Of a DNA stretch of 36,211 bases, positions 6,253 through 31,272 are shown in pieces. The DNA comes from Phycisphaerales bacterium (GTDB taxonomy: Bacteria > Planctomycetota > Phycisphaerae > Phycisphaerales > SM1A02): the NCBI GenBank assembly GCA_007693845.1, contig RECV01000135.1, positions 1-36,211 of the forward strand, read 5' to 3'. Below the pieces are notes generated by a model. The model was not told the origin of the DNA and did no database searches. It saw nothing but the letters and a program-made list of their open reading frames with translations. Within the stretch, counting starts at the first letter, position 1, and each line of letters starts with the position of its first letter. A program made the position numbers and the translations under genes.

Positions 6253-6665
6253 GTGGATTCACCCTCTCGAAACTGTTCGGCATCATCGGCCGTTGTCGGT
6301 TCATTGCTTTCTTCGTGACTCAGATCATCACCGACCGCGCGGCGGATGGCGGCATTCACCTCGGCCTGCTTCTGCAGCGACGAATCCAGCTTGAAAATCA
6401 GCCGGGGCATGCGCCGAAAGGAAACCTCGCTGGCGATCTCGCGCCGCAAGTGGCCGGCCGCACTGTGCAACCCCTTCAACGTCATGCGTTCGTGTTCATG
6501 CGGCAGGACGGAGACATACACCCGCGCCTCGCTGTAATCATCGGTCAGGCGGATCTCGGTCACGGAGATCATCCCCCGCACCCGCGGATCATGCAGACCC
6601 TTCACCAGGCGCGCCTGGATCGCGCGGCGAAGAACGGAAGCAACTTGTTGCGCATGAACACTCAT
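6249..6665 (-). CDS. rbfA: 30S ribosome-binding factor A
   Basis: This 138-residue protein has the RbfA KH-type fold pattern. An N-terminal helix with the RAIQARLVKGLHDPRV motif is followed by MISVTEIRLTDDYSEARVYVSVL, helix LKGLHSAAGHLRREIASEV, and RRMPRLIFKLDSSL before the C-terminal helix. RbfA binds the 30S subunit near helix 1 of 16S rRNA and is needed for late maturation and cold adaptation. Position after infB is the conserved bacterial order. The stop codon overlaps the GTG start of the HhH-GPD-like gene. The usual downstream partners, a DHH phosphoesterase and truB, are not here. Confidence 0.95.
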   Translation of the reverse strand: MSVHAQQVASVLRRAIQARLVKGLHDPRVRGMISVTEIRLTDDYSEARVYVSVLPHEHERMTLKGLHSAAGHLRREIASEVSFRRMPRLIFKLDSSLQKQAEVNAAIRRAVGDDLSHEESNEPTTADDAEQFREGEST

Positions 6666-15875: not shown

Positions 15876-17654
15876 TTACCGGCCCAGCACCAGGAGCTGC
15901 TGGATCAGTTCGTTCGTGGTGGTGATGACCCGGCTGGACGCGGAATAGCCGGTCGATGCGAGGATCATGTTGATGAACTCCTGCGAGAGGTCGACGTTCG
16001 ACAGTTCCAGCGCGCCGCCGACCACCCGCCCCGTGCCGAACTCGGTGGGTTTGGTCACGAGCGGCGTGCCGGAGTTCGGGCCGGCGGTGAAGAGATTGTT
16101 CCCAGCGTCGACGAGCCCTTCCGGGTTGGAGAAGTTGGCGAGCGCGATCTGCCCGATGGTGCGCGTCAGGCCGTTGGTGAACGCGCCGCTGATCACGCCG
16201 TCGTTGCCGATGGAGAAGTTGCTCAACGTGCCGATCGGCGAGCCGTCCTGATAGACGGCCGCGAGATTGCTGCCCTTGTCGGTCAGTGCCGAGATGGCAT
16301 CCGTCCCCGAGTCAAAGTCCATGGTGACCGTGAGCGGGCTGACCGCACCGTTCTGGCGAATGATGGAGAACGAGTCATTTGACGCTTCAACGTATTTGCC
16401 GTTGGCGTCAAAGTTGACGATCCCCATGCCGACAATGCGGTTGAGCGCATCATTGTCTTTCGATTCAGCGATGTATTTCCACGTTGTACCCGCACCGTCT
16501 TCCGCATCCTTGAGGACGAACGTCAGGTCCACAGTCAGAGGCGTGCCGAGCGAATCGTACACAATGAAGCTGGTACGGACCGATTCGCCGTCCGCCTCAC
16601 CGCTCTTGCTCATGACGAACGGCTGGCTGATCGCGTTGCCGGAGTCACTCGAGGCGACGAAGGATGCGGTCTGCATGTTGAGATCCTGGACCTTGCCCTC
16701 GTTGCCGGTGATGACGATCTGACCGTCCGCGTTGATCTCAATACCGCCGCCGAGGTTGAAACCGTTGACATCGGTGCTGGTAAGCCCGAGGACATCTTCC
16801 AGAAACTCGATGTAATCATTCATATTCGTTCCGAAACCATCGACGCCGCGGTCAGCGGCGGTGGCGGCGTCCATGAAACCGAAGGTGAACTTGCCGAGGT
16901 CCTTGCCGCCCTTTTCGATGCCGGAGATGGTGATGATGGTGTTCTCGCCGCCTTCGATGGCCTGGAACACGCCGCCCGCTCCGTTGTCGATCCACAAGCT
17001 GTTTGCTGGATCGGTCAGGTCTTCCGTGCCGTCCATCTCTGTACCCGGAGTCAGCGTGTCGGTGGTGAACATGGCGCGGGCGTTGTGGATTGATCCGCTC
17101 GTGGGCAGTGGGCCGGAGGCGTTCAGGTTGCCGTTGAACACCACACTGCGCGACGCTTCGGCGAGAGTGAGCGTTCCGAGCGGTATGTTCAGATCGACCA
17201 GTTCACCGTCCACGACCTGGAACTGATCATCAACCGTGAATCCCTGCACCTTGCTTCCAGTGATGGTCACCAGGTCATTGGCTTCGTTGCGCTGAAAGGA
17301 GCCGGCGCGGGTGTAGAACTGTTCGTTGCCGTTCCGGACGATGAAGAACCCGTCCCCCTCGATGGCGATGTCCGTCAGCACGCCGGTCGCGCTGATGGCG
17401 CCGTTGGAAAAGCTGCGTTGCGTGCCGGCAACCGTGGTGCCGAGGCCGACCTGGCCGGGATTCGTGCCGCCGCTGAATTCGTTCGGCGAGGTGCCGAGCG
17501 AAAAGTTCCGACTGAACGTCGGCTGAAAGATCATGCGATTCGACTTGAATGCCGTCGTGTTGACGTTGGCGATGTTGTTGCCAATCACATCGAGCCGGCG
17601 TGAGTTGGCGGACAGTCCGGACAAGCCGGTGAACATGGAAGTCATGGAAGCCAT
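15876..17654 (-). CDS. flgE: Flagellar hook protein FlgE
   Basis: The hook subunit is exported by the flagellar type III system and polymerises outside the cell. The chosen ATG at 17654 has AAGGAG seven bases upstream; a TTG one codon earlier is in frame. The 592-residue protein has the D0 helix start SMFTGLSGLSANSRRLDVIGNNIANVNTTAFKS and the mirrored C-terminus ELSNVDLSQEFINMILASTGYSASSRVI. TDIAIEGDGFFIV marks the conserved FlgE/F/G core. The middle (about 170-450) is a long variable surface insert, so it is larger than the enteric FlgE of about 400 residues. It sits downstream of flgD and the TIGR02530-type gene, as expected for a hook module. Confidence 0.95.
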   Translation of the reverse strand: MASMTSMFTGLSGLSANSRRLDVIGNNIANVNTTAFKSNRMIFQPTFSRNFSLGTSPNEFSGGTNPGQVGLGTTVAGTQRSFSNGAISATGVLTDIAIEGDGFFIVRNGNEQFYTRAGSFQRNEANDLVTITGSKVQGFTVDDQFQVVDGELVDLNIPLGTLTLAEASRSVVFNGNLNASGPLPTSGSIHNARAMFTTDTLTPGTEMDGTEDLTDPANSLWIDNGAGGVFQAIEGGENTIITISGIEKGGKDLGKFTFGFMDAATAADRGVDGFGTNMNDYIEFLEDVLGLTSTDVNGFNLGGGIEINADGQIVITGNEGKVQDLNMQTASFVASSDSGNAISQPFVMSKSGEADGESVRTSFIVYDSLGTPLTVDLTFVLKDAEDGAGTTWKYIAESKDNDALNRIVGMGIVNFDANGKYVEASNDSFSIIRQNGAVSPLTVTMDFDSGTDAISALTDKGSNLAAVYQDGSPIGTLSNFSIGNDGVISGAFTNGLTRTIGQIALANFSNPEGLVDAGNNLFTAGPNSGTPLVTKPTEFGTGRVVGGALELSNVDLSQEFINMILASTGYSASSRVITTTNELIQQLLVLGR

Positions 17655-17698
17655 CAATGCACTCCTTCGAATGCGGGGTCAATCAGTCACTCAGTCGT

Positions 17699-18211
17699 TC
17701 AGTCAGGACGATCCGCCGGAAACGTAAAGTGCCGGGCCGCGCCGGGCGGCATGATGCCGGCTCCCCAGATGCCCATGCCCGGCCGCAACGGCTCGGATGG
17801 GTGATCCCGTTCCGGATCGATCACGTACACCGCCGCATCGACGGTGTTCACCACCGACGATGTCGGCGTCAGTTCATCGGTCAACGTTCGTTCGTTCACA
17901 TCCAGTGTCATCCCGCGCCCGTCAATCAGCATGAGCGCGCTCGACGCACCGGATGATTCGGCCAGATCGGCCGCGGCGCTCAAACGGTCCAGTTGCGCTT
18001 CATCCAAAGGCGGATCGGCTTCGAAGGCCACGGTCACCTTGCGACCGCTGCTTACCCGACCGTCCGACACGAGCGCCAGCATCTGATCGAACCCCCGCGC
18101 TTCGAACGGCGGCCGGGCCGCCGAGACACGGCCCGAGGCGACGGGACGAACCGCCGGTTCGAGTCGCTTGAGAAGTTGGAGGGGGTTGATCGGCATCGGC
18201 GTCGGGATCAC
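17699..18211 (-). CDS. TIGR02530-type flagellar operon protein
   Basis: This 170-residue protein starts with GTG at 18211; an ATG at 18196 is also in frame and no clear ribosome site decides between them. The central part, LDRLSAAADLAESSGASSALMLIDGRGMTLDVNERTLT-like sequence at about 75-115, follows the pattern of the short flagellar operon protein TIGR02530. That family is encoded between flgD and flgE in Firmicutes, Leptospira and relatives, and its exact role is unproven but linked to hook assembly. The family normally covers about 95 residues; here there is an extra N-terminal segment and a C-terminal extension of about 50 residues (VVNTVDAAVYVIDPERD). The gap to flgD is 15 bases. Confidence 0.7.
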   Translation of the reverse strand: MIPTPMPINPLQLLKRLEPAVRPVASGRVSAARPPFEARGFDQMLALVSDGRVSSGRKVTVAFEADPPLDEAQLDRLSAAADLAESSGASSALMLIDGRGMTLDVNERTLTDELTPTSSVVNTVDAAVYVIDPERDHPSEPLRPGMGIWGAGIMPPGAARHFTFPADRPD

Positions 18212-18226
18212 AAAGAGAGATCGGGA

Positions 18227-18778
18227 TCAGGGAAGTTCATCCTCGGAATCGGTTTCGTCACCCGCGCTATCCGGCTGACCGCCGGCTCCGGGAGTGTCCT
18301 CATCGACGGGTGGTGAAGGCGGCGGCACATCAGCAGGCACCGGTGCGCCGGGTTGATCAAAGAGCGAAGGGTCGATGATCGTCTCGACATTCTGCATCGG
18401 CATGACCCAGCCATTGTCGAGTTCGAGATTGACGGTTTTGCCTTCCCGAATCACGGAAACGACGTACCCGGCCACGCGGTCATTCTCCGTGTTGAGCCCG
18501 CCGACGAATTTCCCGATCAGGTTGCCCGCAGAGGCGAGTTGATTTTCGAGTACGAGCGATTCGAGCTGCTGCGTGAGCTTGAGGTCCGACTCGATCGAAC
18601 GAATCGCGCTGATCTGCTCAAGCAGCGCGGCGGAGTCGTTCGGGTCAAACGGATCCTGGTTCGAAAGCTCAGTGAAAATGATCTTGATGAAGTCCTCGGA
18701 AGACATCTCACTGAACGCGCTCTGCGTGTTGCGCTGGAGGGCATTCTCAACCGGATTGAAGCCACTGACCTGACTCAT
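18227..18778 (-). CDS. flgD: Flagellar hook assembly protein FlgD
   Basis: This 183-residue hook-capping scaffold is needed for FlgE polymerisation. The N-terminal part has SSEDFIKIIFTELSNQDPFDPND, the classic FlgD L-x2-Q-DP motif region, followed by LLEQISAIRSIESDLKLTQQLESL. The C-terminal part, GKFVGGLNTENDRVAGYVVSV, matches the start of the FlgD Tudor-like domain, but the Ig-like FLN domain seen in enteric FlgD is absent. The last 35 residues are Pro/Asp/Glu-rich. This short type is common outside Proteobacteria. The gene begins seven bases after fliK. Confidence 0.93.
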   Translation of the reverse strand: MSQVSGFNPVENALQRNTQSAFSEMSSEDFIKIIFTELSNQDPFDPNDSAALLEQISAIRSIESDLKLTQQLESLVLENQLASAGNLIGKFVGGLNTENDRVAGYVVSVIREGKTVNLELDNGWVMPMQNVETIIDPSLFDQPGAPVPADVPPPSPPVDEDTPGAGGQPDSAGDETDSEDELP

Positions 18779-18784
18779 GATGAA

Positions 18785-20530
18785 TCACTCCTCGATCGCT
18801 GCGGCGTGAATCTCTCGCTTCTCTCCGCGGTGGAGTGCGTGAATGACATCCTCAAAGACATCGTCGCGAGAATTGCGTCCGGATCGTTCGTCGGGGGAGG
18901 AGTCCCGACGTCCGCGGCTCTGGCCGTCGCCGGCATCCTGCCGCGTCTGCTCCCGGCCGTTCTCTTCGTTCTGCTGCGACATTCCGTTCCAGGATGTACT
19001 TGACGATGAGTTCGTCACGGTCAGTCTCTCCACGGTCAAGCCCTGGCCCTCCAGCGCAACCCGCAGAACGGCCAGATTGCGTTCAAGCAATTGCTGTGCC
19101 TGCGCGGATTCCGCCTGGAAGCTCGCGGTGACCACCCCCTGCATCACCGTCATCTGCACGCGCAACTGACCCAGATCCGGCGGATCCAGCCGCATCGTCA
19201 GCGCGCCCCCCCGCTGATTCACCATCGTCGTCAGGCCGCGCAAAACGCGGCCGGAGAACTGCTCCTCGTCAATCGCTGCGCCCCGGGTCGGCAATTGTTG
19301 CGTCTGAGAGGTGCCGCTTTCAGCGCCCGCGTTCAACGTCGCACCGCCCGCCAGCGTGTTAACCGGCACGGCACGTCCCGAATCCGCCGAGGTCGCCGTC
19401 GAAGCGGCTCCGCCGCCCGCATTCTCCAGTCGGACCGCCGTCTCGATCTGCATCACCCGCGCATCGGCGGCACGCATACCCTTGCGCGAGGGCATGACAC
19501 GCGTCTCGTTCTCCGTCGCTTCACGCTGTTGATGGGACGTGGTCGGCTCCGGCGGCTTTGATTGTGAATCCGGCGACTTCTCGCCCTGCGTGGTTGCGTT
19601 CGGTTTGACCGTCTCCGCCCGACGGGATTCCCCCTGCCGATCGTGACGCGGTTCCGTCTGTCGGTTCACCTGCTCGCGCCGCGGCTTCTCCTCATCAACA
19701 ACAAACGGACGCGAGATCGATTGGTCCGTCGCGCGGTCCGTTCTTGCTGACTCCCGGCCGGAACGGTTCGCCGATGAATCTTCCTCTCCACCCTTCGCTG
19801 CGGTGGATCCATCCGGCGCGACGGCCGCGATTGCGATCTTTTCATCAGGCACATCCGCATTCGGCGGGGGCAAGTCCTTCTCAGCGCTCGGCGGCACTTC
19901 CTCATCGGTCTCCTCCGCCGGCAGTTCGCCATCCGCCTGCTGCGAGTTCGGCTTTACCGCCGGAGCGTCGCTGGTTGATTCGTCAGCCTGCTCAGAAGAG
20001 TCGGAGTCCGAATCCGACTTCGAGGTTGTCGTTTCGGCATTCAACTGCAGGTGCGGCTGGTCTGGCGTCTCACGCTCAGGCCGCAGTTCTTGCGCTTCGC
20101 TTGGTTGATCCTGCGCCTGCTCCTGCCGCGATGCATCATCGCGTTGCCCAGGGGATTTCTCATCCTTCCGGTCCGTTTCCCCAGACTCCCCGGTTTCGCC
20201 GGCGTTGTCCTGCTTCGGCCGTTCCTCCGACGATTCGGCACGTTTCTCCGGCGACTTCGACGACGATTCGTCGCTGCGGGAGTTCTGTTGCGCCGCATTG
20301 TCCTTCGGTAGCGCATTCGCCGATCGCTCGGAATCAACGTCGGCGGCACTGCGACCGGTTGATTCGAAGACGTTTCGGAACGATACGACCTGGCCGGCGG
20401 AGCGGTTGTCCCGCTGCTGGCTGGAGTCCAACGACGGGGACTGGCTGAAAATGGATGCAGCCCCGGTCTGCGGGGATGAAGGGCGGCTGGGGGCGTTACT
20501 GAGCGTCGGCAATTCGGTCCGCATGGTCAT
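18785..20530 (-). CDS. fliK: Flagellar hook-length control protein FliK
   Basis: FliK measures hook length and switches export specificity through FlhB. The C-terminal Flg_hook domain is clear: GGALTMRLDPPDLGQLRVQM, then VTASFQAESAQAQQLLERNLAVLRVALEGQGLTVERLTV (about 460-520). The preceding 430 residues are low-complexity Ser/Glu/Asp/Gln/Arg sequence, as expected for the unfolded ruler part. I place the start at ATG 20530 (581 residues) or ATG 20524, because upstream codons would run further into the MotE-like gene. It overlaps that gene by 35 bases. A short C-terminal tail after the hook domain is polar and charged. Confidence 0.85.
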   Translation of the reverse strand: MTMRTELPTLSNAPSRPSSPQTGAASIFSQSPSLDSSQQRDNRSAGQVVSFRNVFESTGRSAADVDSERSANALPKDNAAQQNSRSDESSSKSPEKRAESSEERPKQDNAGETGESGETDRKDEKSPGQRDDASRQEQAQDQPSEAQELRPERETPDQPHLQLNAETTTSKSDSDSDSSEQADESTSDAPAVKPNSQQADGELPAEETDEEVPPSAEKDLPPPNADVPDEKIAIAAVAPDGSTAAKGGEEDSSANRSGRESARTDRATDQSISRPFVVDEEKPRREQVNRQTEPRHDRQGESRRAETVKPNATTQGEKSPDSQSKPPEPTTSHQQREATENETRVMPSRKGMRAADARVMQIETAVRLENAGGGAASTATSADSGRAVPVNTLAGGATLNAGAESGTSQTQQLPTRGAAIDEEQFSGRVLRGLTTMVNQRGGALTMRLDPPDLGQLRVQMTVMQGVVTASFQAESAQAQQLLERNLAVLRVALEGQGLTVERLTVTNSSSSTSWNGMSQQNEENGREQTRQDAGDGQSRGRRDSSPDERSGRNSRDDVFEDVIHALHRGEKREIHAAAIEE

Positions 20531-21218
20531 CGTCTCGCGCAAGTTCGGCATCAGTGCCGAATCTCCGGAGACGTTCCAGCAATTCCGTTGCCAAACGGAT
20601 TTCTTCATCCGTGCGGAACTGTTCAAGGATCTTGCTGGAGGCCCGCGCGTTCATGGCATCCAGATAGGCCACGGCCTGATCGATCTGATTGTCGCGCACC
20701 AGTTCTACCATGATGGCCTTGCCCTGCCGCGGCGGCACGGACTCAAGCTGACGCACCGCTTTGGCGAACTGCTCATCGGCCCGTCGCTCACGTTCGGCGG
20801 CGATCGCTTCTTCCCACGCTCGTCGTTCCTCTTCGAACTCCTCTTCGCGGTCCTGTAGACGCCTGAGATTGCTCGACAGCTGTTCCAGCAGGTGTTCGCG
20901 TTCTGACTTGAGTCGCCGAATCGCGCGCTGCTCGATCTCCTCGAGATGGCTGATGTGCTCGATCTGCATTTCGCTGGACATCGGCAGCCGACGGCGGCGG
21001 ACATCGGCTTCTTCCATCGCGCGAAGAGCTTCGGCTTCCTGGGCGGCAGCTTCTGCCGCGGCTTCGGCCTGCGCAACGGTCGGCGCGAGCAGATCACGCA
21101 ATGATTCGATCCGATCGCGGCTCAAGCGATCCGACTGCCAGAGCCACACCGCGAAGAGCGCCAGCGCGAGCAGGTGGACCACGGCCATGAAACTGACGAC
21201 ATTCCAGAGGGTTTTCAT
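20496..21218 (-). CDS. motE: MotE-like membrane coiled-coil protein
   Basis: This 240-residue protein has one N-terminal membrane helix (about 5-28, FMAVVHLLALALFAVWLW) followed by a long Glu/Arg-rich coiled coil (about 60-160). A C-terminal helical domain (about 160-225) includes IDQAVAYLDAMNARASSKILEQF and LATELLERLRR, the same layout as the MgtE-N-like domain of MotE. MotE is a periplasmic chaperone-like stator partner described in alphaproteobacteria; similar proteins occur between fliJ and fliK in other phyla. Start ATG overlaps the fliJ stop by four bases (ATGA). The gene symbol is tentative. If correct, the coiled coil and C-domain lie in the periplasm. Confidence 0.65.
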   Translation of the reverse strand: MKTLWNVVSFMAVVHLLALALFAVWLWQSDRLSRDRIESLRDLLAPTVAQAEAAAEAAAQEAEALRAMEEADVRRRRLPMSSEMQIEHISHLEEIEQRAIRRLKSEREHLLEQLSSNLRRLQDREEEFEEERRAWEEAIAAERERRADEQFAKAVRQLESVPPRQGKAIMVELVRDNQIDQAVAYLDAMNARASSKILEQFRTDEEIRLATELLERLRRFGTDAELARDDDHADRIADAQ

Positions 21219-21679
21219 TCGTGGTTCTCCCAGGTCTGATCCGATCGCGCAGCGCGCTGGACCACAAGTTCATCAAGTGCCGCTGCTTCGGCCTTCTCGT
21301 GTCGGGCCTTCCACTCCTGGAAACGCTTCTCCCGCAACAACTCGATGGCCCGGCGATCCCGGGTCGCTTCGATCAGCGACTGCCGCGCCCGTGAGAGCCG
21401 CTGATGCAGCCCGGCCAACTCCACCACCATCCGGTCGGCTTCCTGCATGATGCGCATCCCCGATGCGGCGTGAAGACGCAGATCATCCGTGGCCAATTGT
21501 CCGACCAGGTGGTCGCGCATTTGATGCTTGCTGTCCGCCAGAAACTGCTGCTGACTCCGAATGCGATCCTCAATTCTCTGCCGCTCCTGTTCCAGCGCGG
21601 CGACTTCACGCTGGCGCTGCTGCTCGGTGTGGCAACGCGCTTTCAGAACCGGCTCGAGTTTGAATCGAAACTTCGCCAT
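21215..21679 (-). CDS. fliJ: Flagellar export chaperone FliJ
   Basis: This 154-residue, almost entirely helical protein begins MAKFRFKLEPVLKARCHTEQQ, the recurrent FliJ N-terminus. It continues as coiled coil, with LQRAR-like and REKRFQEWKARHEKAEAAALDELVVQR segments. FliJ is a central stalk of the FliI ATPase and recycles export chaperones. It is on the same strand, 10 bases after fliI, and overlaps the MotE-like gene by four bases. Confidence 0.9.
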   Translation of the reverse strand: MAKFRFKLEPVLKARCHTEQQRQREVAALEQERQRIEDRIRSQQQFLADSKHQMRDHLVGQLATDDLRLHAASGMRIMQEADRMVVELAGLHQRLSRARQSLIEATRDRRAIELLREKRFQEWKARHEKAEAAALDELVVQRAARSDQTWENHE

Positions 21680-21689
21680 GATTGCTCAT

Positions 21690-23114
21690 TCAGGATGCTT
21701 TGGATCCGCCTCTATTCTGCGTGTTCGTGATGGGATTGGGCGATGCCGCCGGAGCGGCCCGCTCGATTTTGGTGCGCAGATCGTTCGCCTCGGCGGCCAG
21801 TTCGATCAACTGCCGACAGATCATCGGATACGAAGCCGGTTCGCTGCTTGACTGCTGCAGGAACTGGTCAATCCGCGGCTTGAGCGCGATGGCCACATCG
21901 CAATCGGGATTCGATCCGCGCGCGTACGCGCCGATGTTGATCAGTTCTTCGGATTCCGAATAAGCCGACAACAACCGAACCATGGTTCGCCGCGCCTGCA
22001 CGTGGTGCTGATCGCAGACATCGTTCGCCACGCGCGAGATCGATTCGAGCAGGTCGATCGCGGGATAGTGGCCGCGCGATGCCAGTTTGCGGGACAGGGC
22101 GATATGCCCATCGAGAATTCCCCGCGCAGCGTCGGAGATCGGCTCGTTCAGGTCATCGCCTTCCACAAGCACGGCATAGAGACCGGTGATCGAGCCGCCG
22201 CTGGTCAACGCTCCGGCGCGTTCCAGCAGACGGGGCATCATCGCGAAGACCGAAGGCGTGTAGCCCTTCGTGGCGGGTTGCTCGCCGACGGTCAGTCCGA
22301 TCTGCCGCTGGGCCTGGGCGAACCGGGTGATTGAGTCCATCATCAGCATCACATCGGCGCCGAGATCACGGAAGTACTCTGCAGCGGTGCACGCGACCAT
22401 CGCCGCGCGAACACGGAGCAGTGGCGATTCATCTCCGGTTGCCACGATGACGACGGAACGGGCGAGACCTTCCGGTCCGAGCGCGGATTCGAGAAAGTCG
22501 CGCACCTCCCGGCCGCGTTCGCCGATGAGCGCAATGACGTTGACATCCGCGCTGGTGTGCCGCGCGATTGACGCCACGAGCGTGGACTTACCCACGCCGG
22601 GGCCGGAGAAGATACCGATCCGTTGCCCCTTTCCGAGCGTGACCATCGCATCGATCGCGGCGACGCCGGTGGGCAACGGCTCATCGATTCTGCGCCGGGT
22701 CAGGGCGCCGGTCGGCGCGGGGTCGAGCGGTCGCAATGTCGTATCAGCCAGCGGGCGTCCACCGTCGATCGGCTCGCCCATCCCGTCGAGAATGCGTCCC
22801 AGCAGACAGTCGCCGACAGGAAGTGTTTGTGCGGATTGTTCACCGATCACGCGCCAGCCCGGTGCGATCCCGGCGCTGCCGGAGAAGAGCATGACGACGG
22901 CGTGGTCACCGTCAAATCCAACGACCTCGCCGCGTATACTTTCGGTCGCCATGGAATTCCGGCGAGCCGGCCCTTCAAAGCGAACCAGCGAACCGACAGG
23001 CAGCGGCAGATACTGAACCAGCACGCTCAAGCCGCGCACGGCAACCACCGAGCCCGCCACCTCGATGGACCGCAATCGCCGCAGGGTGTCAAGCTGTGTC
23101 CCTAAAACACTCAC
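21690..23114 (-). CDS. fliI: Flagellum-specific ATPase FliI
   Basis: This 474-residue cytosolic ATPase powers type III export. It has the Walker A motif GPGVGKST at 171-178, followed by VIALIGERGREVRDFLE. Downstream motifs typical of FliI/V-type ATPases include MMDSITRFAQAQRQIGL, with conserved Asp-Ser and Arg positions, and the GSITGLYAVLVEGDDLNEPI loop. The start is a GTG whose bases overlap the fliH stop (GTGA), so translation is probably coupled. Length is typical (about 440-475). The extreme C-terminus (AAPAASPNPITNTQN) is a short disordered tail. Confidence 0.96.
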   Translation of the reverse strand: MSVLGTQLDTLRRLRSIEVAGSVVAVRGLSVLVQYLPLPVGSLVRFEGPARRNSMATESIRGEVVGFDGDHAVVMLFSGSAGIAPGWRVIGEQSAQTLPVGDCLLGRILDGMGEPIDGGRPLADTTLRPLDPAPTGALTRRRIDEPLPTGVAAIDAMVTLGKGQRIGIFSGPGVGKSTLVASIARHTSADVNVIALIGERGREVRDFLESALGPEGLARSVVIVATGDESPLLRVRAAMVACTAAEYFRDLGADVMLMMDSITRFAQAQRQIGLTVGEQPATKGYTPSVFAMMPRLLERAGALTSGGSITGLYAVLVEGDDLNEPISDAARGILDGHIALSRKLASRGHYPAIDLLESISRVANDVCDQHHVQARRTMVRLLSAYSESEELINIGAYARGSNPDCDVAIALKPRIDQFLQQSSSEPASYPMICRQLIELAAEANDLRTKIERAAPAASPNPITNTQNRGGSKAS

Positions 23115-23920
23115 GGCGATTCGTCCTCGCGCAGATTGGGATCGGTTGCTGATTCTGAATCTGATTCTGATTGATCGGCAGTAGGACCCGGCGCCTCTTC
23201 CACCGGTTCAGCCACCGGCGGATCCGCCCAGGGGAGCAGCGCGATCGCCAGTCTTTCGATCTGTCGTTCCAGCGTCGCGTCGATGTGACCGCCCTTGAAG
23301 GAGATGCGACACCCGCCCCGTTGCAATTCGGGCGTTTCACGCACCGTGGCGTGAATCTTCTGATCCAGGTCGGACAAAAGATCCGGCAGCGCTTCCTCGA
23401 TGATGGGTCGATCTTCCGGATTGACGTGAACCGCGATAGAAGTCGGGCCGGCCAGCACGCTCAAGCACTCGGCGAGTTGATCCGTCACCACTGTGGGGTC
23501 GTATTCAATCACGCGGCGAACGATCTGTTCCCCCAGCGCGAAGGCAAAGGAGAGCACATCCTCCCGCGCGGTGAGCAGCATCGTGTTGCGCTGCTGCTCC
23601 CAGTCCGCCAGGGTCTGCCGCCATGCGGCATTGATTTCTTCCAGTTGCGGCTTCAATTCCTGCAGTGCGGTTTCGCGGCCCTCGCCCCTGCCCTTCTCAC
23701 GCCCTTCGTTCATGCCCCGCTCGAAGCCCTGTTGGTATCCGCGATCGTCGGCGGCTTCGACCAGTCGCCTGGCTTCATCGCGCGCCTTGGCCAGGATGGT
23801 GTTCGCTTCATCGCGCGCCTGCTGAAGAATGCGATCGCCCTGCTTCTTCAGATCGCCCAGATCCAGCACCATCGCGTTCTTGAGCAGGCGGCTGGACTGT
23901 TTGTTCTTGATGAGGGGCAT
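23111..23920 (-). CDS. fliH: Flagellar assembly protein FliH
   Basis: This 269-residue regulator and C-ring tether of FliI carries an N-terminal coiled-coil part rich in Ala/Arg/Glu (DRILQQARDEANTILAKARDEARRLVE). It then has the Gly-spaced repeat GYQQGFERGMNEGREKGRGEG around 70-90, the GxxxG-type array that defines FliH. The C-terminal domain (REDVLSFAFALGEQIVRRVIEYDP to GGCRISFKGGHIDATLERQIERL) resembles the FliH/YscL fold. The last 40 residues are acidic and disordered. It is between fliG (72-base gap) and fliI (4-base overlap). Confidence 0.92.
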   Translation of the reverse strand: MPLIKNKQSSRLLKNAMVLDLGDLKKQGDRILQQARDEANTILAKARDEARRLVEAADDRGYQQGFERGMNEGREKGRGEGRETALQELKPQLEEINAAWRQTLADWEQQRNTMLLTAREDVLSFAFALGEQIVRRVIEYDPTVVTDQLAECLSVLAGPTSIAVHVNPEDRPIIEEALPDLLSDLDQKIHATVRETPELQRGGCRISFKGGHIDATLERQIERLAIALLPWADPPVAEPVEEAPGPTADQSESDSESATDPNLREDESP

Positions 23921-23992
23921 GACTGACTCACACGTTCAGAGGTCCATTTCAGCAATGGAGGGCGTTGACGTTTCGCGCTTTCAGGTGGCCGG

Positions 23993-25033
23993 TCAGACCA
24001 CGACGTCCTTCTCGCCGCCGCGGCCGGCAATGATGATTTCACCCGCATCTTCAAGCCGCCGCACGATGTCCACGATGCGCTGCTGCGCTGCTTCGACATC
24101 GCTGAGGCGCACGGGTCCCATGTACTGCATATCTTCCTTGATGAGTTCCGCAGCGCGGCTGGACATGTTATTGAAGATCTTGTCCTTGAGATTGTCGCTG
24201 GCGGTCTTGAGCGAGACAGCCAGTTCGTCGTTGTCAACTTCCTTGAGGACGGCCTGAATCCCCTTGTCGTCGACGCTGATGATGTCCTCGAAGACGAACA
24301 TGAGCCGACGAATCTGCTCGACCAGGTCGGGGTCTTCCGCCTCGATTCCCTCCATGATCGACTTTTCCGTCGCGCGATCGCAGAGGTTGAGGATTTCCGC
24401 GACGGTCTCCACGCCCCCGACCTTCTCCACCGTGTGCATCAGCATGTTGGACAAACGCGATTCGAGTCCGCTTTCCACTTCACGGATCACGGTCGGGTTG
24501 GTCTGCTCCATGTTCGCCACCCGACGCACGACTTCGGTCTGCTTCTGCTCGGGCAGGCCGATGAGAATTTCCGAGGCCTTGTGGTGCGGCAGGTGGCTGA
24601 CGATGAGCGCGATGGTCTGCGGATGCTCATCCTGGATGAAGGTCAGCAGGTTTTCGCTTTCAGCTTTCTGGAGAAACGAGAAAGGCGTCTTCTGAACCTG
24701 CGTCTGGATCTGGTTGATCATCTTCGACGCCAGGGACGGATCGAGCGACTCTTTCAGAAGAAGCGTGGCGTGATCAAGCCCGCCCTCCTTCATGTACTGG
24801 CTCGCCATCTTGAGGGCGTAGAACTCTTCGACGACCGCGGCCGCGAGGGAGGAGGGAATCTCTCCGATGGACGCGATGGTTCGGCTGACTTCTTCCACCG
24901 TCTCCGAAGGCAGTTCGCGCAACAGCTTGCCGGCCGAATCACGTTCCAGCGTCAGCAGCAGAATCGCCGCTTTGACCACGCCGTCCAGTTCATCGATGTT
25001 GTCGGGCAGCTTTTGGCCGGGACGAAATGCCAT
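23993..25033 (-). CDS. fliG: Flagellar motor switch protein FliG
   Basis: FliG (346 residues) links the MS ring to the C-ring and carries the torque residues. The three FliG domains are visible: N-domain with KAAILLLTLERDSAGKLLREL, middle domain with the EHPQ motif (FIQDEHPQTIALIVSHL), and C-domain with RRLMFVFEDIISVDDKGIQAVLKEV followed by AVSLKTASDNLKDKIFNNMS and AAQQRIVDIVRRLEDAGEI. The charged torque helix residues (Asp, Lys, Glu, Asp) are kept. The protein is close in pattern to Thermotoga FliG. Start ATG 25033 is 22 bases downstream of fliF. Confidence 0.97.
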   Translation of the reverse strand: MAFRPGQKLPDNIDELDGVVKAAILLLTLERDSAGKLLRELPSETVEEVSRTIASIGEIPSSLAAAVVEEFYALKMASQYMKEGGLDHATLLLKESLDPSLASKMINQIQTQVQKTPFSFLQKAESENLLTFIQDEHPQTIALIVSHLPHHKASEILIGLPEQKQTEVVRRVANMEQTNPTVIREVESGLESRLSNMLMHTVEKVGGVETVAEILNLCDRATEKSIMEGIEAEDPDLVEQIRRLMFVFEDIISVDDKGIQAVLKEVDNDELAVSLKTASDNLKDKIFNNMSSRAAELIKEDMQYMGPVRLSDVEAAQQRIVDIVRRLEDAGEIIIAGRGGEKDVVV

Positions 25034-25054
25034 GCGCGTTCCTTGCTCCTTCGA

Positions 25055-26722
25055 TCAGGCGTGGGATTTCATCCAGCGTCGGACGAGACCGGCGGCTTCC
25101 GCGGGTGTCTGACTCGCCAGTTCGTTGATCTGGCTCAACATCTGCTGTCGCCGCAGATCGTCTTCATCGACTTCAACGCCGTCGAGTGTGGCGGGTGTTT
25201 CCCCGGCCTCGCCGACGAGTTCCGATTCCGCATCCCGCAAGGCAGGGGTGACGCCCACCAGATCCTCCGGCGTGGGCAGCTCTTCCCGGACGGAGGCCTT
25301 GCGGACGAGCATGAACATCATCGCCAGCGACACGATGGCCAACGCGAGCAGGCCGACGGTCTTGACCAGCCCTTCGCTGACCAGGCCGCCGATCGCGCCG
25401 GATTCACCGGCACCCATCGGGCCGCCGAAGCCCTGCAGAGACGCCACCGCAAAATCAGGGATCATTGAGACCATAACTGTACCCGCAACCGCGCCGTCAA
25501 CCGCCCTGGTATCTATCAACGGCTCGATTTGCGAGCGGATTCTTTCCGTTTCCGCCTCCACCAGCGCATCGAGTTGTTCCGGTTCGGGCTGTGCGGCCTC
25601 GTCCCCCAGACGGTCCTGATAAAGACGAACAAAGTACGACTTCGGCACGCCGATCGTCGAGTTGATCAGGAGCGGATGGCTGCGGTGATCGGTAATCCGG
25701 GCATCGGAGTTGCCGACGAACGGAATCATCGAGGCATCGGTTCGCTCATCGCTGAGGGTGGAGGTTCGCCCTCCGCCGCCGCGAATGTTCGCGCCGGTAT
25801 TGGGTCGGACCCCGGCTTCCCGGCCGCCGGTCTGATTGGTGGTGTTGACGATGCGGCTGGATTCGCCCGTCACCCCGAGCTTCGGCTCGTCGAAATCTCG
25901 CCGCTGCTGAATGATCTGCCGCGTATCGACGGTCACGCTGACGGCAACATTCACGCCCGGAATGTACGCGAGCGTTTCGGCGATCTTCTCACGAACCAGT
26001 TGCTCCTTGGTGAGCTGAACTTCCAGATTGCTGCTTGCATTGAGTTGATCGGCCTTTCGCGCGCGGTGCACCCGGCCGGCCACCGCATCAATCACCCGAA
26101 CGTGTTCAACCTCAAGCCCGGCATGGGCGCCGGCGACCATCTCCGCAATCGCATCGACGGTATTTTGCTCCAGCCCGCGCCGGGCGCGGACGGTCACCGA
26201 AGCGGAGGCCGGCAGGTGCGCCCGACCGATGCCGTGCTGATTCTTCGGTTCGTCGATCACCACCCGGGCCCAATCGATGCCGTTCATGCTGGCAATCGTC
26301 CGGCCGAGGACGTTCATGGTCGCGTTCAGCCAGCGTCGTTCGTTCTGCGCCCGGCTGAGAAACGGGCTGTCCTGTTCGATGAGCGTGTCGAAGTCGATCT
26401 GGTTGGGCGTGATGACCTCGTTGTCGGTCAGGCGCGCCAGGATCGTGTATTTGCGATCGACGGGCACGTGGATCTCCCCGCCCCGCTCTCGGTAGGGAAT
26501 GTTCTGAGCGCGGAGGTATTCCACCGCTTTTCCGCGGGCATCGCTGCTGATGCCGGGCTGAAGACCGAGCGGTTCCATGGATGTGCCGCCGGCGTATTGA
26601 GCGATGAGGAACAGAGCCAACAGAAGGATGACCATCATCGAACCGATGAGCATCTTCGCGGTGGACGAGAGTTCGCGCACCTGCTTCCAGATCTGTTCCA
26701 GCGTGTTCTGCAGGGCCTGCAT
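25055..26722 (-). CDS. fliF: Flagellar MS-ring protein FliF
   Basis: This 555-residue inner-membrane ring protein has a first membrane helix near residues 25-45 (MLIGSMMVILLLALFLIAQY). The ring-building domains RBM1 to RBM3 follow, including FDTLIEQDSPFLSRAQNERR and TVRARRGLEQNTVDAIAEMV-like segments. The disordered linker (about 310-345) carries GGREAGVRPNTGANIRGGGG. The second membrane helix is near 445-465 (LVKTVGLLALAIVSLAMMFML). The cytosolic end is a FliG-binding tail with DDLRRQQMLSQINELASQTPAEAAGLVRRWMKS. A 116-base gap to fliE holds an imperfect hairpin. Length is typical for FliF. Confidence 0.96.
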   Translation of the reverse strand: MQALQNTLEQIWKQVRELSSTAKMLIGSMMVILLLALFLIAQYAGGTSMEPLGLQPGISSDARGKAVEYLRAQNIPYRERGGEIHVPVDRKYTILARLTDNEVITPNQIDFDTLIEQDSPFLSRAQNERRWLNATMNVLGRTIASMNGIDWARVVIDEPKNQHGIGRAHLPASASVTVRARRGLEQNTVDAIAEMVAGAHAGLEVEHVRVIDAVAGRVHRARKADQLNASSNLEVQLTKEQLVREKIAETLAYIPGVNVAVSVTVDTRQIIQQRRDFDEPKLGVTGESSRIVNTTNQTGGREAGVRPNTGANIRGGGGRTSTLSDERTDASMIPFVGNSDARITDHRSHPLLINSTIGVPKSYFVRLYQDRLGDEAAQPEPEQLDALVEAETERIRSQIEPLIDTRAVDGAVAGTVMVSMIPDFAVASLQGFGGPMGAGESGAIGGLVSEGLVKTVGLLALAIVSLAMMFMLVRKASVREELPTPEDLVGVTPALRDAESELVGEAGETPATLDGVEVDEDDLRRQQMLSQINELASQTPAEAAGLVRRWMKSHA

Positions 26723-26838
26723 GCGTCGGCCTCCATGCCTGGCAAGCGGGAAATCGAGAAATGGCGGACGATCAAAATGTCCGTCGCCGCCGAACGTGCC
26801 ATCCTGGCGTCGTCAGCGGTGATTCAGGTGTTATCGGC

Positions 26839-27147
26839 TCAGACTCGGATTTGCTTCACTTCCTCGTACGCTTCCATCACTTTATTTCTCACCTGAAGCA
26901 ACATTTTGAAGGCCACGTCGGCTTTCTCCGTCGCCAGGATCACGTTTTCCAAGTCATTGCGCCGACCCGCGTGAAGGTCTTCCACCGCTTCACGCGCGTC
27001 TGACTGGAGCTTGTTGACCTCCGCGATCTGCTCCTTGAGGAACTCCTTGAAGTCTGGGCCGTTCGCCGAGCCGGACTGCCCCGGCTGGCTCTGCGCCGGC
27101 TTCGTCAGCGGCGTGGTTTTTCCAATCAGTCCCAGGGGATCGGTCAT
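26839..27147 (-). CDS. fliE: Flagellar hook-basal body complex protein FliE
   Basis: This 102-residue adapter joins the MS ring to the rod. After a short variable start (MTDPLGLIGKTTPLTKPAQ) it has FKEFLKEQIAEVNKLQSDAREAVEDLHAGR and then the C-terminal family signature NDLENVILATEKADVAFKMLLQVRNKVMEAYEEVKQIRV. Length is typical (100-110). It follows flgC by 23 bases, the conserved flgB-flgC-fliE order. Confidence 0.95.
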   Translation of the reverse strand: MTDPLGLIGKTTPLTKPAQSQPGQSGSANGPDFKEFLKEQIAEVNKLQSDAREAVEDLHAGRRNDLENVILATEKADVAFKMLLQVRNKVMEAYEEVKQIRV

Positions 27148-27170
27148 GTCAGTTCCTCAGGCCGGTCGGA

Positions 27171-27575
27171 TCATCCGAGCAGTTGCAGCGCAATACTTGT
27201 CATCGACTTGGTCGCCTCGATCGCCGCAATGTTGGCCTCGTACGAGCGGGCCGCTTCCATCGCATTCATCTGTTCCACGACGGGATTAATGTTCGGATAG
27301 CCGACGTAGCCGTTCTCATCAGCGAACGGTGAGCCGGGCTCATACTTCAACATCGGGGTGCCGTCGTCAAGTTCAATATTGCTCACGTGAACACCCATCG
27401 GTTCACCACGGCTGGGATCTCCAGCGGCGAGATGCGCGATCCGGCGGCGGAACGGCTCGTACTCGCCGTTCTCGTTCAGGATGGTGTCCTTGTTCGCCAC
27501 ATTCGCCGCAACCACATTGAGGCGGGTTCGTTGGGCGATGAGGCCGGAGGTCGAAATGTCAAGAGAGCCGAGCAT
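27171..27575 (-). CDS. flgC: Flagellar basal-body rod protein FlgC
   Basis: This 134-residue rod subunit is exported by the flagellar system. The start MLGSLDISTSGLIAQRTRLNVVAANVANKDT matches the rod-protein N-terminus. The centre VHVSNIELDDGTPMLKYEPGSPFADENGYVGYPNINPVVEQM is characteristic of FlgC. The C-terminus MNAMEAARSYEANIAAIEATKSM is the mirror helix. It sits 30 bases after flgB. Confidence 0.96.
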   Translation of the reverse strand: MLGSLDISTSGLIAQRTRLNVVAANVANKDTILNENGEYEPFRRRIAHLAAGDPSRGEPMGVHVSNIELDDGTPMLKYEPGSPFADENGYVGYPNINPVVEQMNAMEAARSYEANIAAIEATKSMTSIALQLLG

Positions 27576-27605: not shown

Positions 27606-28040
27606 TTACAGTCGCTCACGAATGGCGAGATTGAGGGTTTCAAACTCCCGGCGCAAGAACTGCGCTGCGGAGCGATACATCGTGAAGTTCTCGACCATGT
27701 GTTGCATGGTGCGTTCCAGATCCCGGTCGTTCTCATCGTGAAAAAGAATATTCTCCCCGGCGGGCGTCGGATGCAGTGTCATCTCGCGGTCATTGACTTC
27801 CACTTCGGAAGAGGACGGCAGCTTGAGCTCGCCGCCACGGTTGCCATGCCGTGCCCGCCGATCATCCATCGCCTCGCCGAGCTGCTTCTGAAAAGCGCTG
27901 ACGGAAACATCGAGCGGGCGGTAGTCGGGCGTGGAAAGGTTTGCGATGTTGTGGACGATCAACGCGTGCCGCTGCCCGGCGAACTGCATCGTTCGCTCCA
28001 GAACCGGTATCGAGCCCGCGTTGGTGAGTCCGGCAATCAT
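27606..28040 (-). CDS. flgB: Flagellar basal-body rod protein FlgB
   Basis: This is the first rod subunit and first gene of the operon. The ATG at 28040 gives 144 residues starting MIAGLTNAGSIPVLERTMQFAGQRHALI, then VHNIANLSTPDYRPLDVSVSAF, the usual N-terminus. The C-terminal part has NDRDLERTMQHMVENFTMYRSAAQFLRREF. The frame is open up to 28157, but that extension would overlap the promoter and enhancer region and begins with non-family sequence, so 28040 is preferred. The predicted sigma-54 start is about 29 bases upstream. Confidence 0.94.
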   Translation of the reverse strand: MIAGLTNAGSIPVLERTMQFAGQRHALIVHNIANLSTPDYRPLDVSVSAFQKQLGEAMDDRRARHGNRGGELKLPSSSEVEVNDREMTLHPTPAGENILFHDENDRDLERTMQHMVENFTMYRSAAQFLRREFETLNLAIRERL

Positions 28041-28079
28041 GCATCCTGCTCCGTCGAGTTCATCCTGTGACTGGTACGC

Positions 28080-28094
28080 TGCAAATCCCATGCC
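28080..28094 (-). promoter_or_regulatory. Sigma-54 (-24/-12) promoter of the flgB operon
   Basis: On the minus strand GGCATG-GGAT-TTGCA matches the sigma-54 consensus GGCACG-N4-TTGCA with one substitution. The GG and GC dinucleotides are exactly ten bases apart. Transcription is predicted to start near 28069, leaving a 29-base leader to flgB. It lies between the flgB gene and an NtrC-family regulator gene and has two enhancer-like dyads upstream. Confidence 0.8.
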
Positions 28095-28136
28095 GCCGAT
28101 CAGTCGCCTCACACTGCTTCGTTCCGCCGCGCCAGT

Positions 28137-28153
28137 GGCGCAATCGCTGCGCT
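28137..28153. promoter_or_regulatory. Enhancer-like dyad 1 (regulator binding site)
   Basis: On the minus strand this reads AGCGCAGCGATTGCGCC, a dyad with arms GCGCA and TGCGC. Thirteen of 17 positions are identical to dyad 2. The centre is about -76 relative to the predicted sigma-54 start, within the usual enhancer range. The likely binder is the adjacent NtrC-type regulator, which has a Fis-type helix-turn-helix. Confidence 0.6.
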
Positions 28154-28166
28154 TCACCTGAGCTCG

Positions 28167-28183
28167 AGCGCAACGGTTGCGCT
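28167..28183. promoter_or_regulatory. Enhancer-like dyad 2 (regulator binding site)
   Basis: AGCGCAACCGTTGCGCT on the minus strand is a perfect inverted repeat with seven-base arms and a three-base spacer. Its centre is exactly 30 bp from dyad 1 (three helical turns) and about -106 from the predicted start. It follows the regulator stop codon by 15 bases; no T tract follows, so a terminator function is unlikely. Confidence 0.65.
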
Positions 28184-28198: not shown

Positions 28199-29758
28199 CT
28201 ACAGCGATTCATCCACAAGCCGCGCTTCCTTCCATTTCTTGAGTTTCAACCCCAGCGTGCGCACGCCGATGCCGAGGGCCTCAGCGCTCTTCTGACGGTG
28301 GCCGTTGTGGTGTTCCAGCGTGGCGATGATCGTCTCACGTTCAATGTCATCCAGCGTCAACTCACCGTTGCAGATGTGGCCGATCTCATGACCCTCCGCA
28401 CCGTCGATCTGCGGCGCATCGTTGAGTTCCATCATGGAGGATGCCCGCGCGGCGATCGGACGGGCCTGTCCGTTAACCGTTGACGGCGCGATCTCGGTTG
28501 ATGTTGCCAGGATTGGATCCGCTGCGGGAAGCCACGGCGCGACCAGGGGCGCTTCAATCGTCTCCCCGGCGGTCAGCACGGCCGCTCGCTCGCAAAGATT
28601 CTGCAACTCGCGGACATTGCCCGGCCAGGAATAACGCTGGAAGAGTTCCATCGCATCCGGCGTGACGCGCTTGACGGGCTTGCCCTCCCGCTTGGCCACC
28701 TGCTCAAGAAAGTGCTGAACGAGTTCCGGAATATCCTCCACATGTTCCCGCAATGCCGGCATCGGCAGCGGCAGCACATTGAGGCGGAAGTACAGATCCT
28801 GCCGAAAGGTCCCGCGCTCCACCTCGCGCGACAGATCTCGGTTGGTCGTCGCAATCACCCGGACATCCACGGACCGGCTGGTTGAAGAGCCGACCCGCTC
28901 GAAACACTGTTCCTGCAGGACTCGCAGCAGCTTGGCCTGAATCTCGGGGGCGATCTCACTGATCTCATCGAGCAGCAGCGTGCCGCCGTCCGCAAGTTCG
29001 AAACGACCTTTGCGAAGTTTGTCCGCGCCGGTGAACGCGCCTTTCTCGTGGCCGAAGAGTTCCGATTCCAGCAGATTCGTCGAGAGCGCTGCACAGTTGA
29101 TCGCGAGGAACGGTTGGGCCGCGCGCGGGCTGGACTCGTGGATCGCGCGGGCCGCGACTTCCTTGCCGGCTCCGGACTCACCGGTAATCAGCACGGTGCC
29201 GTGACTGTCCGCAATGCGATCGATGCGTTCGCGCAGTTCGCTCATGATCCGGCCCCGGCCGATCATCTTGTGCGCGCGCACCTTTCGCCGCGATCGGCCG
29301 TTGTGCGAATCCTCAGCCGCACCTTCGGCCGTTTCCGAGACCGCCTCCGTTCCGGGCGTGCCGGACAATCGCAGAATGGCGTTTTCACGGACCAGCTTGG
29401 CGTGGTTGATGGCGCGGGCGATCGTGACCAGCAGCACATCGCCGCTGAAAGGCTTGGTGATGTAGTCGTACGCGCCGTTCTTCATGGCCTGCACCGCGGT
29501 TTCGATCGTGCCGTAGGCGGTCATGAGCACGACGGGCAGTTGCTCATCCTGATCACGGATGGTGGCCAGCAGATCCAAGCCGTCCATCTCCGGCATCTGG
29601 AGATCAGTCACGACCACATCGACCGAGCGTTTGCTCAGTTTGTCGATCGCATCCTTGCCACTGGAGGCGGTTACAACCGCGTGGCCCTTGCGGGAGAGGG
29701 TCGTTGCGACACTGTCGCGCATCATTTCCTTATCATCGACGACGAGTATTCGGCTCAC
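28199..29758 (-). CDS. NtrC-family sigma-54-dependent response regulator
   Basis: This 519-residue activator has a receiver domain with acidic pocket D8/D9, phospho-acceptor D52 in VVVTDLQMPEMDG, and the conserved Lys102 (TKPF). The AAA+ domain has Walker A GESGAGKE (193-200), the GAFTGA loop (240-245) that contacts sigma-54, and Walker B LLLDE (261-265). The C-terminus has a Fis-type HTH: ERETIIATLEHHNGHRQKSAEALGIGVRTLG. Start is GTG overlapping the kinase stop by four bases. Adjacency to the flgB operon and its kinase suggests a FlgR/FleR-like master activator of flagellar genes. Unlike Helicobacter FlgR, it keeps its DNA-binding domain. Its likely sites are the dyads at 28137 and 28167. 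Confidence 0.93.
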   Translation of the reverse strand: MSRILVVDDKEMMRDSVATTLSRKGHAVVTASSGKDAIDKLSKRSVDVVVTDLQMPEMDGLDLLATIRDQDEQLPVVLMTAYGTIETAVQAMKNGAYDYITKPFSGDVLLVTIARAINHAKLVRENAILRLSGTPGTEAVSETAEGAAEDSHNGRSRRKVRAHKMIGRGRIMSELRERIDRIADSHGTVLITGESGAGKEVAARAIHESSPRAAQPFLAINCAALSTNLLESELFGHEKGAFTGADKLRKGRFELADGGTLLLDEISEIAPEIQAKLLRVLQEQCFERVGSSTSRSVDVRVIATTNRDLSREVERGTFRQDLYFRLNVLPLPMPALREHVEDIPELVQHFLEQVAKREGKPVKRVTPDAMELFQRYSWPGNVRELQNLCERAAVLTAGETIEAPLVAPWLPAADPILATSTEIAPSTVNGQARPIAARASSMMELNDAPQIDGAEGHEIGHICNGELTLDDIERETIIATLEHHNGHRQKSAEALGIGVRTLGLKLKKWKEARLVDESL

Positions 29759-30792
29759 GGTGCGTACTCCAGGCTGGCGGGTTGTTGATTCTCGTTGTTT
29801 GTTTCCGTGCGGGCGATCGTCATGATCGAAATCGGCGGGTCCGCTTCCATTGCCTCGTCGGCCCCGGGATCATCATCGCCTTCCGCTTCCCGCGCGGACT
29901 CGAGCGGTCTACGGGGCAGGCAGAGTTCAATTCGCGCGCCGCCCGCATCGCGGTTACTCACGTTGATGTGCCCGCCATGGGCGTCGATGATCCGGTGCAC
30001 GATCGCCAGACCTAGGCCGGTTCCGGTTTTCCGGGTCGTGAAGAACGGGTTGAACATGCGTTCGACGACTTCGGGTGGAATACCCGGGCCATTGTCTTCC
30101 ACCGCAATGACGATGCGTTCGTCGTACTGCCCGCCGGGACAGCGCATCTTGCGCTCTTCGGTGATGACCCGCACGCGGCGCGGCCGATCGAGAATGCCGT
30201 CCGTCTCCCCCATGGCCTCGACGGCATTTCGCACGATGTTGCCCAGTGCCTGTCCCAGCAGCCCGGCGTCGGCGTGCATCGGACCGGCCGCGCGGAACGA
30301 ACACGCCAGCTCGGTGCCGCTGTTCTGAAACAGGGCCGTACAGCCGTCCAGTGCACGCTGCACCAGCGCCTTCGGGTCGATCGGCTGCGGCTCGATGGTC
30401 GTCTTCCGGGCAAAGGAAAGGACATCACGGACGATGGCATCGAGCCCGACGACCGCGCGATCGATCTTGCGGCACACCTCCGCCTGGTCGGGGCGGTCCG
30501 CCAGATCCTCCTCCAGCATCTGGACGTAGAGTTGAATCGAACCGAGCGGGTTGCGAATCTCGTGAGCGATGCCGGCGGCCATTTCACCCAGCGCCGCGAG
30601 CGATCGCGAGCGGCGGAGTTTGGCGTTCGCTTCGGCGAGTTCGGCCTGCAACTGCGCGACCTGCTCCTTCAGCGCGACGTGGGTCTGCTGCAACTGCTCA
30701 GTGGTTTCCGCGACCACGCCCATTAGCTCGCGCAGGTCGTCGACATCCAGCGATCCGCCGTGCTTCGCCATTGACTTCAGAACGGAGTTCAT
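29755..30792 (-). CDS. Cytosolic sensor histidine kinase (FlgS/FleS-like)
   Basis: This 345-residue protein has no membrane helix. Residues 20-65 form a coiled coil (LQQTHVALKEQVAQLQAELAEANAKLRR). The HisKA domain has AALGEMAAGIAHEIRNPLGS with the phospho-accepting His77. The HATPase domain has an N-box (GQALGNIVRNAVEAM), G1 (VEDNGPGIPPEVVERMF), F-box (NPFFTTRKTGTGLGLAIVHRI) and further Gly motifs. The combination of a cytosolic short kinase next to an NtrC-type regulator is that of flagellar two-component pairs such as FlgS-FlgR and FleS-FleR. The input signal is not obvious from sequence. The 60-residue C-terminal tail is acidic and low complexity. It is 3 bases from the flgN-like gene. Confidence 0.9.
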   Translation of the reverse strand: MNSVLKSMAKHGGSLDVDDLRELMGVVAETTEQLQQTHVALKEQVAQLQAELAEANAKLRRSRSLAALGEMAAGIAHEIRNPLGSIQLYVQMLEEDLADRPDQAEVCRKIDRAVVGLDAIVRDVLSFARKTTIEPQPIDPKALVQRALDGCTALFQNSGTELACSFRAAGPMHADAGLLGQALGNIVRNAVEAMGETDGILDRPRRVRVITEERKMRCPGGQYDERIVIAVEDNGPGIPPEVVERMFNPFFTTRKTGTGLGLAIVHRIIDAHGGHINVSNRDAGGARIELCLPRRPLESAREAEGDDDPGADEAMEADPPISIMTIARTETNNENQQPASLEYAP

Positions 30793-30795
30793 CGC

Positions 30796-31272
30796 TTAGC
30801 CCTTCCGATCGGAAAACCGCGGATCGCGTGCGGCGTGCCGCTTCGCCATGTAAGCGCGCTGGGCTTGTTTCGCATTGCCGAGCGAATTGATCTCTTTGCG
30901 TGATTCATCACGAAGTCGCTCCATGGATTTCTGATCTTCCTCATCGCGCTGCATGATGTCGCTGAGACAGCTTGAAAGCCCTTCAATGGTGTGGCCGAGC
31001 TTGCGGCGCGTCTCCTCGTCCAGTCCCCTCGGCTCATCGCGAACGCGCTCACTCAGCGCATTGATCTTCTCCTGACGCGTGAGCAGACGTTCGAGAATCG
31101 TCTGACGCTGATCGAGCAGCGAGAGCAGTTCATCGTGCTGATCGCCCTGAATCAGTTGGCGCTGACGTGCCGCCAGTTCACGCAACTGCGTCAGATCTTC
31201 CTGCTGACGGTTCAGCAGCGCGATCAGTTCGGTCCGGGGTTCATCCGCAATCTGGCCTGTCGTCTCGTTCAT
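30796..31272 (-). CDS. flgN: FlgN-like flagellar export chaperone
   Basis: This 158-residue, all-helical, highly charged protein has an N-terminal region (LIALLNRQQEDLTQLRELAARQRQLI, DELLSLLDQRQTILERLL) that matches FlgN-type helix hairpins. FlgN chaperones the hook-associated proteins FlgK and FlgL. Sequence identity in this family is low, so the call rests on heptad pattern, size (120-160) and the flagellar neighbourhood. The C-terminal 30 residues are basic (AKRHAARDPRFSDRKG). It is directly upstream of the kinase gene, with a three-base gap. Confidence 0.65.
   Translation of the reverse strand: MNETTGQIADEPRTELIALLNRQQEDLTQLRELAARQRQLIQGDQHDELLSLLDQRQTILERLLTRQEKINALSERVRDEPRGLDEETRRKLGHTIEGLSSCLSDIMQRDEEDQKSMERLRDESRKEINSLGNAKQAQRAYMAKRHAARDPRFSDRKG

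Follow-up and report, generated by a model that had tools for sequence, protein, structure and literature searches.

The region between flgB and the regulator gene next to it in this Phycisphaerales genome holds two dyads and a -24/-12 promoter, which we read, with a probability of about 0.84, as a sigma-54 unit by which the adjacent two-component system would turn on flgB together with the genes downstream. That this is how the neighboring regulator activates the operon is very probable because the site is found again in the corresponding position across the order. Coordinates of the features are collected in Table 1 and refer to the window, that is, the whole stretch of 36,211 nucleotides that was analysed; genome-wide work consisted of pattern searches of the 3.26-Mb draft.

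Table 1. Features of the flgB region and related elements, with positions in the window unless a contig or locus is named.
Feature	Position	Strand	Remarks
Enhancer dyad 1, AGCGCAACCGTTGCGCT	28167..28183	minus	Centre 28175 (-106); perfect 17-bp palindrome with 8-bp arms; from sequence and the conserved GCGCA-N5-TGCGC
Enhancer dyad 2, AGCGCAGCGATTGCGCC	28137..28153	minus	Centre 28145 (-76); 5-bp arms GCGCA/TGCGC; from sequence and the conserved motif
Sigma-54 (-24/-12) promoter, CGGCATGGGATTTGCA	28080..28095	minus	Predicted +1 at 28069; equivalent promoters in relatives
flgB, first gene of the flagellar operon	27606..28040	minus	TIGR01396 at 54.6 bits, slightly below the 59.05 cut-off; place beside the regulator kept in 46/50 genomes
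Rest of operon: flgC, fliE, fliF, fliG, fliH, fliI, fliJ, unnamed ORF, fliK, flgD, unnamed ORF, flgE	15876..27575	minus	Pfam/NCBIfam matches
NtrC-type response regulator, proposed enhancer-binding protein	28199..29758	minus	Receiver, AAA+ with GAFTGA, Fis HTH; orthologue adjoins flgB across the order
Histidine kinase, proposed cognate sensor	29755..30792	minus	HisKA and HATPase_c; no membrane segment evident; 4-bp overlap with regulator gene
FlgN-like coiled-coil ORF, same gene string	30796..31272	minus	Pfam FlgN match below threshold (19.9 bits)
Third GCGCA-N5-TGCGC dyad, inside flgB	27651..27665	minus	Centre about +411; G001, G032 and G011 have an exact dyad at these codons too
Conserved non-coding stretch of ~174 nt, candidate small RNA	L281:1513-1686; G000:C1 about 6358-6531	minus	Dyad and sigma-54 promoter TGGCATATCTCTTGCT at its head, hairpin at its end

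The probable enhancer-promoter unit ahead of flgB

The promoter foreseen by the original prediction is in place: it has the form GG-N10-GC, deviates from TGGCAYGNNNNTTGCW by a single mismatch and ends 39 bp ahead of the flgB ATG (28040), with the predicted start 29 bases upstream of that ATG. The sequence equally bears out the description of the two 17-bp dyads, whose centres lie exactly 30 bp apart at -76 and -106 and which are identical at 13 of 17 positions. A sigma-54 promoter match alone is within chance for 36 kb (0.63 expected), and the weight of this one is in its position and conservation, not its rarity. The pattern shared by the dyads, AGCGCANNNNTTGCGC (AGCGCA-N4-TTGCGC), gives 4 strand-matches in the window versus 0.01 expected, and the genome scan that had been proposed for it returned only three sites in the whole draft (28168, 28138 and, in flgB, 27651), all in this window and within a span of at most 0.55 kb. 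The looser form GCGCA-N5-TGCGC is no rarity on its own, with 17 sites genome-wide versus 9 for a reversed control, and was rejected as a stand-alone finder of the regulon as too common. The genome also contains rpoN (Sigma54_DBD, 207.5 bits, contig C248), the absence of which had been named as evidence against the prediction.

NtrC enhancers such as that of glnA are paired 17-bp dyads at about -100, set near whole helical turns apart, and their half-site is of the TGCAC type. The paired 17-bp dyads near -100, close to whole helical turns apart, are alike here, whereas the half-site is GCGCA. Comparative evidence supports the element as a putative sigma-54 enhancer-promoter unit for a flagellar regulator of the FlgR/FlrC/FlbD-like kind.

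Conservation across the order

Sixty relatives were searched for the regulator, and 50 distinct genomes with an adjacent regulator were examined; the genomes are related and their counts non-independent. flgB is the next gene after the regulator in 46 of these 50 genomes of the order. Picking by regulator homology alone and keeping gaps of at least 60 bp left 35 usable regulator-flgB regions, in which every palindrome with 5-bp arms and a gap of 0 to 10 was enumerated with no prior motif. GCGCA-N5-TGCGC came out on top of this unbiased enumeration, being exact in 23 of the 35 regions, while the runner-up, a partly overlapping pattern, reached 10. Shuffled regions gave a mean of 0.12 and a maximum of 2 exact occurrences, and a stretch of regulator coding sequence taken as control had it in 0/35; with up to one mismatch allowed, the count is 31/35 versus 2.06 in shuffles. 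The profile of the site, GCGCA(A/G)NNN(T/C)TGCGC, is symmetric, with nearly all information in the arms. Dyad and sigma-54 promoter stand in the right order and at the right distance in 24 of the 35 (median centre of the nearest dyad, -84.5). The dyad is thus kept beside flgB across the order, where a lack of conservation in relatives would have spoken against the prediction. Between this genome (G000) and its nearest relative (G001) the gap is mostly unalignable, and both retain the promoter and two dyads, 30 and 31 bp apart, which is site turnover with the function apparently retained.

The unit is not universal: some relatives have a single dyad or none before flgB, and in three genomes flgB begins 21 to 23 bp past the regulator with no promoter in between. 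These three, together with the common orientation of the genes and the lack of a visible terminator, would suit an arrangement in which flgB is transcribed mostly by read-through from the kinase and regulator genes and the sigma-54 unit only boosts it. We consider this unlikely, as most relatives retain promoter and dyad in a gap of 60 to 230 bp, an arrangement superfluous for read-through.

The dyad pairs are spaced 18 to 24 or 30 to 31 bp apart, about two or three helical turns, the wider spacing being found in this genus and in G022 and the narrower elsewhere. The idea of an NtrC-class enhancer is supported: the presence of rpoN and the conservation of the dyad across the order speak for it, but the 30-bp spacing that had been expected to be conserved is not, and we rejected it as a rule in favor of rough helical phasing. 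This phasing is only suggestive (Rayleigh p about 0.0015), the 18 pairs coming from related genomes in few clades.

Sites elsewhere and a candidate small RNA

A blind search for dyad plus promoter in 201 genomes of the order found flgB in 22 of 30 fetched loci at the farther spacing and in 11 of 30 at the nearer, or 33 of 60 with both spacings pooled; a few loci recur between the searches. In a phylum-wide scan flgB lay beside a match only in loci within the order, and an extension of the unit beyond the order was rejected. In Candidatus Scalindua (L039:4338-4700) flgB likewise follows the regulator and a sigma-54 promoter, TGGTATACGTTTTGCT, is present, but the GCGCA dyad is absent.

The unit also stands ahead of fliD in six genomes (G036, G039, G043, G047, G055 and G059), the dyad being farther out in G039. 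fliD was rejected as a target in the present genome, where neither a dyad nor a good promoter was found before it. Genus g36 has a promoter but no dyad before flgB, and four of its genomes (L026, L027, L029, L030) carry an exact dyad directly past the fliE stop, about 1.3 kb after the regulator stop; other conserved sequence and then fliF follow it. This dyad may serve a fliF promoter or may act backwards on flgB, for which downstream enhancers in Caulobacter, to judge from titles cited in PMC3096577, offer a precedent. The dyad inside flgB is kept in three relatives at AQxxR codons, with synonymous codons differing and numbers small; its retention is perhaps above what codon use would predict, and its role is uncertain. 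We rejected it as part of a second promoter unit for flgC, the best sigma-54-like match overlapping the flgC start codon.

The only other strong enhancer-promoter pair in the genome is on the minus strand of contig C1, with its dyad at 6619-6633, and heads the non-coding stretch listed in Table 1. Conservation of this stretch in two sister genomes starts at the predicted start and finishes with a strong hairpin, and its mean column identity is 94% (97% over the last 120 columns), against 77% for flgB between G000 and G001. A short reading frame within it terminates earlier in G001, as the alignment shows, and no ORF matching the PilZ gene that follows is visible at the corresponding place there, which makes an RNA more probable than either a protein or a leader. 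The stretch folds modestly better than its shuffles (z = -2.31) and matches no Rfam family. A covariance model finds the candidate RNA in three genomes of this genus only, and a search of another 148 genomes from the family, at the stricter filter setting, found none. A DNA match in G016 was rejected as an RNA homologue, as it resembles coding sequence. The Campylobacter RNA CJnc230 is an RpoN-dependent flagellar small RNA processed from flgE mRNA (PMC11187230), whereas the candidate on C1 is headed by a dyad and sigma-54 promoter of its own.

The inverted repeats might themselves act as RNA, forming a hairpin at the 3' end of the regulator mRNA or serving as its terminator or attenuator, given that in many genomes they lie within about 50 bp of the regulator stop codon. 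This is very improbable: the conserved arms are just 5 bp long, a search for a terminator-like site came up empty, sites occur at fliD promoters and ahead of the non-coding stretch as well, and the spacing of paired sites is close to two or three turns of the helix.

The regulator, its kinase and the operon

The regulator has the make-up ascribed to it in the original prediction, with the GAFTGA motif in its sequence and matches to a receiver (PF00072), a sigma-54 AAA+ domain (PF00158) and a Fis HTH (PF02954). Its scores against the Campylobacter FlgR model NF049963 (302.9, cut-off 750), the Caulobacter FlbD equivalog NF050807 (354.6, cut-off 750) and the NtrC equivalog TIGR01818 (440, curated cut-off 558.6) are all below the curated cut-offs, and it is therefore best called an unassigned flagellar NtrC-family regulator. 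Its best named relatives belong to Phycisphaerae genomes, and the window is assigned to that class accordingly. Apart from the place beside flgB, the link of the kinase-regulator pair to flagellar genes is seen in the co-occurrence of the regulator orthologue with FliD (Fisher p = 9e-7). flgN-like ORF (an uncharacterised coiled-coil ORF), kinase, regulator and flgB follow one another in a consecutive row.

The dyads could be a genuine conserved site of another DNA-binding protein, such as a different sigma-54 activator or a repressor, with the adjacent regulator acting elsewhere or enhancer-free. With 27 regions of the genome matching the regulator, itself included, sigma-54 activators are many, and Helicobacter pylori FlgR, as cited in PMC7064773, is a precedent for the enhancer-free mode. 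We hold such a binder to be quite improbable, since the dyad site adjoins the regulator in most genomes and is found ahead of fliD and past fliE as well, and the recognition region of the regulator's Fis HTH, LGIGVRTLGLKLKKWK, is nearly invariant across the order, which fits a fixed DNA site.

The operon from flgB to flgE spans about 12.2 kb, and two ORFs within it (17699-18211 and 20496-21218, minus strand) have zero Pfam/NCBIfam matches. Since the largest gap between called flagellar genes is only 116 bp, sole control of the whole 12-kb operon by the predicted start at 28069 is plausible.

In the mechanism we propose for the adjacent regulator, the kinase and the regulator would take part in phosphorylation upon a flagellar cue, and regulator dimers would occupy both GCGCA-N5-TGCGC dyads, which face nearly the same side of the helix, and oligomerise there. 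The GAFTGA loop, with ATP, would then open the promoter for RNA polymerase-sigma-54 at 28069, leading to transcription of flgB and the downstream genes. Regulator binding, phosphorylation, the start site and the single transcript are all inferred.

Relation to known systems

In Campylobacter, Vibrio and Pseudomonas, the FlgSR, FlrBC and FleSR pairs of kinase and NtrC-type regulator activate sigma-54 promoters of rod and hook genes, including flgB (PMC7064773). The present system resembles them in having a kinase, an NtrC-type regulator and a sigma-54 flgB promoter, but differs in that kinase and regulator lie directly ahead of flgB and the regulator scores far below the FlgR cut-off. Caulobacter FlbD, which acts at ftr sites, is likewise a flagellar regulator of the NtrC family and has defined DNA sites; its control is by FliX, not by phosphorylation (PMC3096577), whereas here the genes for kinase and regulator overlap, and the score falls under the FlbD model cut-off. 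The system is of a known kind, and what is new is the sequence of the site, the RNA, and the content of the operon, which counts MS-ring and rotor genes among its members. No description of an enhancer code for flagellar genes in Phycisphaerae was found in the literature searched.

For FlgS of Campylobacter, the MS ring, the rotor and the export apparatus are prerequisites to turning on rod and hook genes (PMC7064773). In contrast, the flgB operon here itself includes fliF and fliG, for the MS ring and rotor, which are needed upstream there as the FlgS signal. With these two genes inside the operon that the unit would switch, their first products would come from low-level transcription, unless the kinase responds to a different signal. 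One possible though doubtful reading is that a single sigma-54 enhancer operon with fliF and fliG, parts that are sensed in Campylobacter, would form a self-reinforcing circuit and not a gene-class checkpoint, and that the same enhancer would drive a dedicated small RNA (about 174 nt, on C1) in this genus.

A 15-bp site that stays fixed throughout an order makes the regulon readable from genomes alone, and it leads as well to a candidate for a small RNA driven by sigma-54. With MS-ring and rotor genes placed inside the regulated operon, this system offers a clear test case for the assembly-checkpoint model.
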